NCBI GenBank assembly: GCA_943331105.2
Contig: CALQKH020000013.1
Span: 38,591 to 102,590 of the forward strand
Length of the DNA stretch: 64,000 bases
Reading direction: 5' to 3'
Source: Akkermansia muciniphila
GTDB taxonomy: Bacteria > Pseudomonadota > Gammaproteobacteria > Burkholderiales > Burkholderiaceae_C
In this document: positions 30,366-33,415 of the stretch, piece after piece
Layout: every line of letters starts with the position of its first letter
How positions within the stretch are numbered: the first letter of the stretch is position 1
Translations under genes and position numbers: made by a program
Notes under the pieces: model-generated
The model's input: the letters and a program-made list of their open reading frames with translations, nothing else
Told to the model about the DNA's origin: nothing
The model's database searches: none

Positions 30366-32249
30366 TCAAGCTGCCCCGTTGCACACCCGCAGCACCTGCG
30401 GGCCGTAGGCTTCAAGCTTTTTCACGCCCAGTCCGCTGATGCCTTGCAGCTGCGCCAGGCTTTGGGGTGCGGCTTCGGCAATCGCGGCCAGCGTCGCGTC
30501 ATGAAAGATCACATATGCGGGCAGGTTGTGCTCTTTGGCCACTTCGGCGCGCCAGGCCTTGAGGTTGATGTAGCGCACCATCGCGTCTTGCCCCAGGTTG
30601 GCGGCGGCGGGTGATGGGGCGCTGCGGCTGCGTGTGCGCTTGTCGGCACGTTGGCTGGTGCTCTCGCGCAGCTGCACCGGCACATCGCCCTTCAGCACGG
30701 CGCGGGAGGCTTCGGTCAGGTGCAGGGTGCTGAAGCCTTCTTCGGTGTGCACATGCAGCGCGCCAATGGCGATGAGCTGGCGCATCACGGCGCGCAGTTG
30801 CTGCTCGCTGTACTCGGCCCCCACACCAAAGGTGCTGATGCTCTCGTGGCCGCGTTGCGCCACTTTTTCGGTTTTTTTGCCGCGCACGATGTCCATGGTG
30901 TGCGCCGCGCCAAAGCTGTGGCCGCTGGCTTGGTGGCAGCGGTACACGGTGGACAGCAGTTTGCGCGCCGCGTCGGTGCCGTCCCACACTTCGGGCGGGT
31001 TCAGGCAGTTGTCGCAATTGCCGCAATACGGCATGTACACGCCCTGGCTGCTCTCGGTTTGGCCTTGGTAGGTTTCGTCAAAATAGCTCAGCAAGCGCAC
31101 GCGGCGGCAGTCGGTGGCTTCGGCCAGGGCCAGCAGCGCGTCGAGCTTGCCGCGCATCACTTGCTTGAATTCTTCGCCCGCCGGGCTTTCGTCGATCATG
31201 CGGCGCTGGTTCACCACGTCTTGCAGGCCATAGGCCATCCACGCGTCCGACGCCAAGCCATCGCGCCCGGCGCGCCCGGTCTCTTGGTAATAGCCTTCGA
31301 TGTTTTTAGGCATGTCCAGGTGTGCCACAAAACGCACATCGGGTTTGTCGATGCCCATGCCGAAAGCGATGGTGGCCACCATCACCACGCCTTCTTCGCG
31401 CAAAAACTCGTTCTGGTGGCGCTGGCGCATCTCGGGGGGCAGCCCCGCGTGATAAGGGAGCGCATGGACGCCCGCCTCGCACAACATGGCGGCGATTTCT
31501 TCTACCCGTTTGCGCGATTGGCAATACACCACGCCCGCGGCTTCGGGGTGGTCGCGCTCAATGAAGCGCAGCAGCTGGGTACTGGCTTCTTTTTTCTCAA
31601 CGATGGTGTAGCGGATGTTGGGCCTGTCAAAGCTGCTGATGAACAGCTCGGCGCTTTCCAGCTGCAGCCGCTCGATGATGTCGGCACGCGTGAGCGCATC
31701 GGCCGTGGCGGTCAGCGCCACGCGCGGCACGCCGGGGTAGCGTTCGTGCAGCACCGTGAGGCCCCGGTATTCGGGCCTAAAGTCGTGGCCCCACTGGCTC
31801 ACGCAATGCGCTTCGTCGATGGCAAACAGGCTGAGCAGGCCGCGCTCTTGCAGCGAATCCATTTGCGCCAGAAAGCGGCCGTTGGTCACGCGTTCGGGCG
31901 CCGCGTAAAGCAAAGTGATTTTGCCGCGCAGCAAGCGGCGTTCAATGTCAGATGCTTCTTCGCTCGTCAGGGTTGAGTTCAAAAAAGCGGCGTTCACACC
32001 CGCTTCGTGCAGTGCGCCCACTTGGTCGTGCATCAGCGCGATCAGCGGCGACACCACCACCGTGATGCCGTGGCCAGCCCGCTGGCGTGCAATGGCCGGA
32101 ATTTGGTAACACAGCGATTTGCCCCCGCCTGTGGGCATGAGCACCAGCGCATCGCCCCCGGCCGCCACATGGTCGATGATGGCCTGCTGCGGTCCGCGAA
32201 AGGCGTCGTAGCCAAAAACTTCGCGCAGGATGGGGAGGTGGGGGGACAC
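30366..32249 (-). CDS. recQ: ATP-dependent DNA helicase RecQ
   Basis: A 627-residue RecQ helicase. Walker A is [15 protein letters not shown], Walker B/DEAH box is [20 protein letters not shown], and motif VI is [12 protein letters not shown]. The zinc-binding RQC region follows ([12 protein letters not shown]...[10 protein letters not shown]) and a C-terminal HRDC domain ends [17 protein letters not shown]. The start is GTG at 32249. It acts in recombination and replication-fork repair. Its 3' end is duplicated as a relic at 29225-29260. Confidence 0.95.
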
Positions 32250-32318
32250 TGGGGTTGGACGGCTGGTTAAGTGGGTGATTGTCCCCTATGGCGAGTGTCA
32301 ATTTCTGGCGGGTGTGGT

Positions 32319-32404
32319 GTGGGTGGGCGAGGGCGTGCACAGGGTTCCTCATACGGCGGGGGTACGCCAAAATCGTCACCCTCTGCCCGCCCTCACCCAC
32401 CCAC
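32319..32404. repeat. Palindromic element 1 with conserved loop
   Basis: Arms at 32319-32345 and 32378-32404 are complementary at 24 of 27 positions (left arm begins GTGGGTGGGCGAGGGCG). The 32-base loop between them contains GGCGGGGGTACGCC, itself a small inverted repeat. The same loop, 30 of 32 bases, is found inverted in element 2 but with unrelated arms. The recQ-queC gap (32250-32695) contains these two elements and a tandem repeat; no gene was seen in it. Confidence 0.75.
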
Positions 32405-32503
32405 AGCAGACCATGGGCTGCGCGGCATGCACACCCAGGGCCGTTGTTCATCACCCGTAAGGTTCGCGCGCTCTTCCAGCAAGGCTGACGACCACCACCA
32501 GCG

Positions 32504-32581
32504 TTTGGAAGGGGGCGGCGGCGGGCGACGATTTTGGCGTACCCCCGCCTCATGAGGAGCCCGCCGCCGGCCCCTTCCAAA
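32504..32581. repeat. Palindromic element 2 with the same loop, inverted
   Basis: Arms at 32504-32526 and 32559-32581 are complementary at 22 of 23 positions (TTTGGAAGGGGGCGGCGG on the left). The loop 32527-32558 is the reverse complement of element 1's loop with two mismatches. Together the two loops also form a long-range inverted repeat (32347-32377 with 32527-32557). Confidence 0.78.
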
Positions 32582-32650
32582 TGCGCCCAGCCGCGCCCAG
32601 CCGCGCCCAGCCGCGCCCAGCCGCGCCCAGCTGCGCCCAGCCGCGCCCAG
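32581..32650. repeat. Seven-unit 10-bp tandem repeat (CCGCGCCCAG)
   Basis: Seven consecutive 10-mers, five identical and two with one change, begin at the right arm of element 2 and end 45 bp before queC. Ten bases is not a multiple of three, and the unit equals one helical turn. It lies in the queC leader or promoter region and may vary in copy number. Confidence 0.9.
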
Positions 32651-32695: not shown

Positions 32696-33415
32696 ATGCA
32701 CAAATCTGCCCTTGTTCTGTTTTCTGGTGGCCAAGACTCCACCACCTGCCTGGCCCATGCTTTGAGCCGTTACGAACGGGTCGAAACCCTGGCGTTTGAC
32801 TATGGCCAGCGCCACAAGGTCGAGCTGGACGCCCGCCTGAACGTGCTGGCTGCGATCAAGGCGCGGTTTCCGGCTTGGGCCCCCAAGATGGGTGAGGACC
32901 ACCTGCTGGACGCGGGCATCCTGGGGCAGATCAGCGAAACGTCTTTGACCCGCGACACGGCGATTGAGATGGAAAGCTCGGGCCTGCCCAACACCTTTGT
33001 GCCGGGGCGTAACCTGCTGTTCCTCACGTTGGCCGCCGCTTTGGCCTACCGCCGGGGCTTGCAGGTCATCGTCACCGGCGTGTGCGAGACCGATTTTTCG
33101 GGCTATCCGGATTGCCGCGATGACACCATGAAGGCCATGCAGGTGGCACTGTCCTTGGGCATGGACCGCAAGCTGTTGATCGAAACGCCCCTCATGTGGA
33201 TAGACAAAGCGCAAACTTGGCAACTGGCGCACGACTTGGGCCAACAAGCCGACCCGGCGCAAGGCGGGCAGGCGCTGGTGGACTTGATCGTGGAGCACAC
33301 CCACACTTGCTATTTGGGCGACCGCACGCAGCGCCACGATTGGGGCTATGGCTGTGGACAGTGTCCGGCATGCCAGTTGCGGGCAGCGGGCTTTGCGCGG
33401 TATGTGCAGCCCTGA
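32696..33415 (+). CDS. queC: 7-cyano-7-deazaguanine synthase
   Basis: A 239-residue enzyme making preQ0 for queuosine tRNA modification. The ATP-pyrophosphatase P-loop is [34 protein letters not shown] and [18 protein letters not shown] are QueC motifs, and the zinc site is [17 protein letters not shown]. The ATG at 32696 is used; the track's 54 extra residues are translated 10-bp repeats (AQPRPAAPS). No other queuosine genes are adjacent. Confidence 0.95.

Follow-up and report, generated by a model that had tools for sequence, protein, structure and literature searches.

The gap between the divergent genes recQ and queC raises the question of why two neighbouring palindromes should have nearly the same loop set between arms that are unrelated in sequence, and what kind of genetic element such an arrangement represents. 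In the window, by which we mean the whole analysed stretch of 64 kb, a search for inverted repeats whose arms measured 18 nt or more and stood no further than 120 nt from each other returned three pairs in total, two of which are these hairpins, here called elements E (32311-32412) and F (32501-32584). The third, at 2327-2385, is weaker, with 18-nt arms that are 83% complementary, and is unrelated to E and F. The features of the region are listed below.

30366 to 32249, minus strand: recQ, divergent neighbour (TIGR01389 above cut-off).
32311 to 32345, plus strand: left arm of element E, 35 nt, 86% complementary to the right arm.
32347 to 32375, plus strand: conserved core of element E, CCTCAT...AAATCG; the inferred folding strand is minus, 5'-CGATTTTGGCGTACCCCCGCCGTATGAGG-3'.
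32378 to 32412, plus strand: right arm of element E, 32 nt from the left arm.
32413 to 32500, no strand: spacer separating the convergent hairpins E and F.
32501 to 32526, minus strand: arm of element F, 26 nt, 92% complementary to its partner.
32529 to 32557, minus strand: conserved core of element F, CCTCAT...AAATCG on minus; the inferred folding strand is plus.
32559 to 32584, minus strand: other arm of element F, 32 nt from the first arm.
32699 to 33415, plus strand: queC, divergent neighbour (TIGR00364 above cut-off).

When both are read in one sense, the 32-nt loops (TCCTCATACGGCGGGGGTACGCCAAAATCGTC and TCCTCATGAGGCGGGGGTACGCCAAAATCGTC) are identical at 30 of 32 bases (94%), while the elements themselves are inverted relative to each other and face one another. 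A first-pass annotation had described just this, two palindromes with inverted and 94% identical 32-base loops; its claim that the arms are unrelated between the elements and yet each self-complementary agrees with the inverted-repeat search, the inner GGCG...CGCC repeat that it saw in the loop is present, and the arm lengths that it gave, 27 and 23 bp, are the better-paired portions of the 35-nt and 26-nt arms. Element F folds far better than its shuffled versions on either strand (z -5.6 and -4.4), and element E more weakly so (z -1.7 and -0.5, for a stretch in which its arms were truncated). A 10-bp tandem repeat, GCGCCCAGCC, with 6.8 copies (32583-32650), lies upstream of queC, directly next to element F; it was not seen in the other recQ-queC regions inspected.

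E and F are members of a larger, scattered family found in freshwater relatives of Burkholderia. The exact 14-base centre of the core occurs five times in the source genome, twice in the window and three times on contig C4, where every copy lies between a new pair of self-complementary arms. Of 60 relatives searched with a longer core pattern (at most 2 mismatches), 16 had a match, all of them from the same genus, and the pattern was also matched by 66 stretches of public genomes, which almost without exception carry the label Limnohabitans or Comamonadaceae/Burkholderiales; genome G020 carries a sister core with an altered inner stem in which pairing is kept. Generalised to CCTCAT-NN-[stem]-G(A/G)GTAC-[stem']-AAATCG, the core has nine copies in the source genome, three of them in frame in a double uvrA gene, and matches in 32 of 401 sampled genomes of the taxonomic family (16 of 141 genera; 0 to 56 per genome), among which a reversed control pattern had no match. 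The hairpins appear to be confined to the Burkholderiaceae in the GTDB sense, as a search of 369 class-wide genomes returned the source genome, one family member and a single stemless, chance-like match outside the family. Phage contigs gave six pattern matches, none with visible paired arms, and the unit of the window had no match among plasmids.

Each hairpin is built from arms of about 25 bp of almost free sequence, a fixed module that reads 5'-C-GA-TTT ... AT-GA-G-3' on the folded strand, and a short covarying inner stem with a GTAC loop. Covariation was assessed in 50 elements with different arms, which align without gaps over 70 columns. The structure pairs 91.5% of cells, against 57.9% (sd 0.9) with shuffled partners and 36-46% with slid partners, and has a covariation score of 0.822 against 0.172, where the shuffled and slid controls leave the relatedness among the elements partly in. 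RNAalifold, run unguided, predicted 26 pairs, 23 of which had both sides changed; the inner stem covaries, as do the outer arms, and the apical stem has four pairs that include invariant G-C pairs. As a rule, two different hairpins in convergent orientation make up the natural unit, and pairs are nearly always convergent. The first-pass proposal, a conserved core with covarying arms belonging to a structured RNA or a REP-like DNA hairpin, and its expectation of further copies in the genome and in relatives, are thus borne out by copies that were found together with their pairing and with arms that covary.

The copies on contig C4 provide a second context. All three lie in frame inside a gene of 2058 aa (locus L007, 8312-14488), the two halves of which match UvrA models, and an ordinary UvrA homologue of 989 aa is encoded elsewhere in the same genome. 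The copies encode (S)SYGGGTPKS(S/A)P and are situated in linker regions; relatives that lack the element have short linkers at these sites or, at one site, other palindromes, and many relatives have a fourth copy that faces the third. At these three sites (A, B and C) the strand that folds runs antisense to the uvrA gene. The site A linker, at about aa 1678, acts like a hotspot at which repeats lodge in frame, and other in-frame palindromes occupy it in relatives: CAATTGGGGTCAGATCCCAATTG in G013, a hairpin CCCTCACCCC...GGGGTGAGGG in G004 and a repeat GGAGCCAGCCCTGCTGGCG in G016.

Which of the two strands folds can be read from the imperfections of the arms. A strand-symmetric process would leave G.T and A.C mispairs equally frequent. 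On the CCTCAT strand 89 A.C and 18 G.T distinct mispair events were counted in 44 arm groups, and on its complement 61 G.T and 10 A.C mispairs in the 50 elements, an excess of A.C on the one strand being an excess of G.T on the other; these counts are partly dependent on phylogeny. Elements of either orientation show the bias, and so do the recQ-queC copies and the majority of the uvrA groups: at site A, 53 cells are G.T and 2 are A.C on the template strand, which is the folded strand, and double changes such as C-G to G-C occur, while site B has no bias (4 and 4). The fixed module provides a separate argument. On the folded strand the supposed loop aligns as C-G, G.A, A.G, T.T, T-A, invariant in 50 of 50 sequences, and a second tandem G.A/A.G lies just outside in 27 of 50, with states that contain a C-G pair elsewhere; on the CCTCAT strand the positions of the G.A module would be pyrimidine mismatches. 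Tandem G.A pairs of this kind are probably of the stable sheared type. Both arguments point to the complement of the CCTCAT strand as the one selected for folding, although a strand-biased mutational process inside the hairpins could mimic selection. The first-pass annotation was right that the core is conserved and had written the strand opposite to the one inferred to fold; its 32-base loop is conserved but is not open on the folded strand, where it reads as a helix that has tandem G.A pairs and a small apical hairpin.

The hairpins insert as whole units. In three genomes (G002, G011 and G013) the recQ-queC intergenic region is short and contains neither arm nor core, whereas G004 has one hairpin there and G017 has two. 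Site A of uvrA is empty in G011 (GTGGATGCTTCT/TTGCAATGGCTC), where others have about 96 extra bases. Genome G124 has five two-hairpin units of about 240 bp at dispersed sites, which are 83-91% identical inside and 39-57% identical in their flanks, i.e. unrelated (units with correctly normalised orientation, with L287 10369 left out). Empty sites that lack the arms, together with units that are alike inside and have unrelated flanks, indicate that the arms travel with the element. MITEs are characterised by terminal inverted repeats in common with an autonomous IS and by a target duplication; by eye, the ends of the G124 units (GTACGCAC... and ...TCGCCC) do not look like inverted copies of each other, and no target duplication was seen. 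Intergenic copies lie mostly between co-directional or convergent genes, according to a rough codon-based gene finder, and the distance from a stop codon to the core downstream of it is often 35-80 bp; by eye, several outer flanks resemble terminator ends. Insertion positions are often common across the genus, which argues that movement is mostly old. A gene between two same-strand elements was considered as an autonomous parent and rejected: by eye it reads like superoxide dismutase and lies beside an exonuclease VII (xseA)-like gene. Two loci of the recQ-queC region (L059 2341 and L010 1501) are chimeras in which the left arm of one hairpin continues, from the core or close to it, into the right side of a different one, and in these the common core or the arms seem to serve as recombination points.

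We propose, with a probability of roughly 0.6, that E and F together make up a convergent hetero-dimer belonging to a non-autonomous, REP/REPIN-like mobile family, the folded single strand of which is recognised by a putative enzyme. The strand would fold when it becomes single-stranded, during replication, repair or uptake, and a putative enzyme acting in trans would recognise the shape (a long helix, the tandem G.A module and the apical loop) and not the sequence of the arms. Such an enzyme would carry the unit to other positions, for the most part immediately downstream of stop codons, and selection or correction for pairing, with the arm sequence unconstrained, would let the arms diverge between sites. 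The strand bias is compatible with single-stranded recognition by an HUH transposase, as far as the sequences can tell.

A serious though unlikely alternative is a structured RNA: the GACGATTT...ATGAGG strand would be transcribed, and its hairpin would regulate or stabilise the transcripts or act as a protein-binding site. With two convergent hairpins, every read-through transcript would contain the second one in its folding sense. Tandem G.A pairs and a tolerance of G.U are what RNA typically shows, the copies lie close to genes, and at recQ-queC each hairpin lies in the 5' leader of the adjacent gene and has the right sense for it. However, at the three uvrA sites the folded strand is antisense to the gene, and in many single copies just past stop codons it is antisense to the upstream gene as well. 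Furthermore, by eye the hairpin is not terminator-like, as its folded strand has no T-run after it, and Rfam covariance models gave no family at threshold, with only sub-threshold matches to microRNA precursors. It is mainly the uvrA copies, and the single copies past stop codons in the same sense, that favour single-stranded DNA rather than RNA as the active molecule. As G.T and A.C mispairs record the folding strand, the long-standing question of a DNA or an RNA role for such repeats can be put to the test, and uvrA offers the most direct case, the messenger there being the other strand.

If the folded single strand of DNA is what an enzyme recognises, a resident candidate is the RAYT, a Y1 HUH transposase, for which the hairpins would be a second substrate and so an aberrant REP. 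A RAYT-like Y1 transposase gene is found in most relatives, usually as a single copy in the genus, and in 10 of 10 element-bearing genomes checked; furthermore, one arm group of G005 and G019 lies within longer palindromes that end in a RAYT-type sequence. These palindromes (L191-L193 in G019 and L185-L189 in G005), with arms of as much as 60 bp, terminate in GGGGTCAGA and look like one repeat sitting inside another. However, G008 and G011 also have RAYT genes and yet carry few or no elements, and in the loci read no element lies within 1.5 kb of the gene. It is flanked instead, on both sides and in inverted orientation, by TTAATTGGGGTCAGATCCCAATTAA (L248, G000:C8 around 66754-67086; also L241-L256 and L307-L316), a REP different from the studied hairpins that fits the GGGGWSAS type, and the hairpins have no GTAG foot. 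GGGGWSAS terminal repeats are a feature of 'TIRYT' genes (PMC3733652). The resident RAYT may act on both the TTAATTGGGGTCAGATCCCAATTAA-type repeat and the hairpins, but as the agent that mobilises the family we consider it rather improbable.

A double-stranded or cruciform site for a chromosome-organising protein, with arms that serve only to extrude the core, would account for the free arm sequence with its strict pairing and for the intergenic, often convergent placement. It predicts G.T and A.C mispairs in equal number, against the strong difference observed, and a copy number of 0 to 56 per genome, zero in most family genomes, is low and patchy for such a role; we regard it as quite improbable. 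Although the outermost 6 bp of one arm (GCTTCT) already exist in the empty uvrA site A of G011, arms made as an inverted target duplication are contradicted by empty sites that otherwise lack both arms and by the arm sequence common to the dispersed G124 units, and insertion of the core into existing palindromes such as terminators by unit flanks no more complementary than shuffled pairings (6.80 vs 7.07), so that this origin of the arms is largely refuted and very improbable.

For the preferred reading, a mobile hairpin recognised by its shape, a stronger version can be formulated, which we put forward tentatively and at well below even odds: the family could represent a new class of single-stranded DNA mobile element, on which a trans-acting enzyme other than RAYT reads the helix length, the tandem G.A module and the apical GTAC loop, and not the arm sequence. 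If so, the arms of every resident copy would be free to drift to a sequence of their own.

Comparison with known systems places the hairpins among the REPs, which are among the commonest bacterial repeats; the superfamilies described so far have an invariant foot and a short stem as their defining features. Palindromes that are dispersed, form dimers in opposite orientation and lie near 3' ends are general REP-like traits, and all are found here. Like the GTAG REPs, REPINs and BIMEs associated with RAYT, the hairpins form dimers, head to head or tail to tail, in which the two members frequently differ, and are placed past 3' ends between co-directional or convergent genes, with some copies inside genes (PMC3733652; PMC3116915). 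GTAG REPs have a stem of 5-13 bp that is conserved within each family, a GTAG or GTGG foot and a RAYT gene flanked by the repeat (PMC3733652; PMC3116915), whereas the hairpins have arms with a median of about 25 bp and of free sequence, a fixed tip and, in the loci read, no copy beside a RAYT gene. Among 63 distinct elements, within 12 nt of either 5' foot, GTAG was found in 1 and 3 and GTGG in 6 and 1. The CGTC REPs, which include Rickettsia RPE-4 and RPE-6 and Neisseria dRS3, are alike in having no dedicated transposase, in occurring mainly as dimers and in their in-frame copies in genes, DNA-repair genes included (PMC3733652). They have stems of 8-9 bp that start with A/T pairs, loops of 4-5 nt, a CGTC foot and a CCA tail (PMC3733652), while the conserved part of the hairpins is internal and their foot lacks CGTC (in the 63 distinct elements CGTC in 0 and 3, TGTC in 2 and 2, CCTC in none).

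Palindromic repeats in uvrA have been noted before as a recurrence that is unexplained (PMC3733652), and the copies described here are an independent case, in frame. The Burkholderiales-1 motif, an uncertain structured motif of Burkholderiales that has no Rfam number, is among the closest known motifs (PMC2864571), and among open-licence papers we found none that describes the hairpins. The Rickettsia palindromic elements are similarly translated in frame inside host proteins; their repeat sequence itself is conserved, whereas the arms of the hairpins differ at every site. Integron attC sites are hairpins of one (bottom) strand with a conserved structure and a variable sequence, but their conserved boxes stand at the outer ends and an attC site ends each gene cassette, while in the hairpins the conserved part is the tip. 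We call the family one of the REP kind, yet not a member of a described REP family: it inverts the REP plan, with a tip that is fixed and arms that are free.
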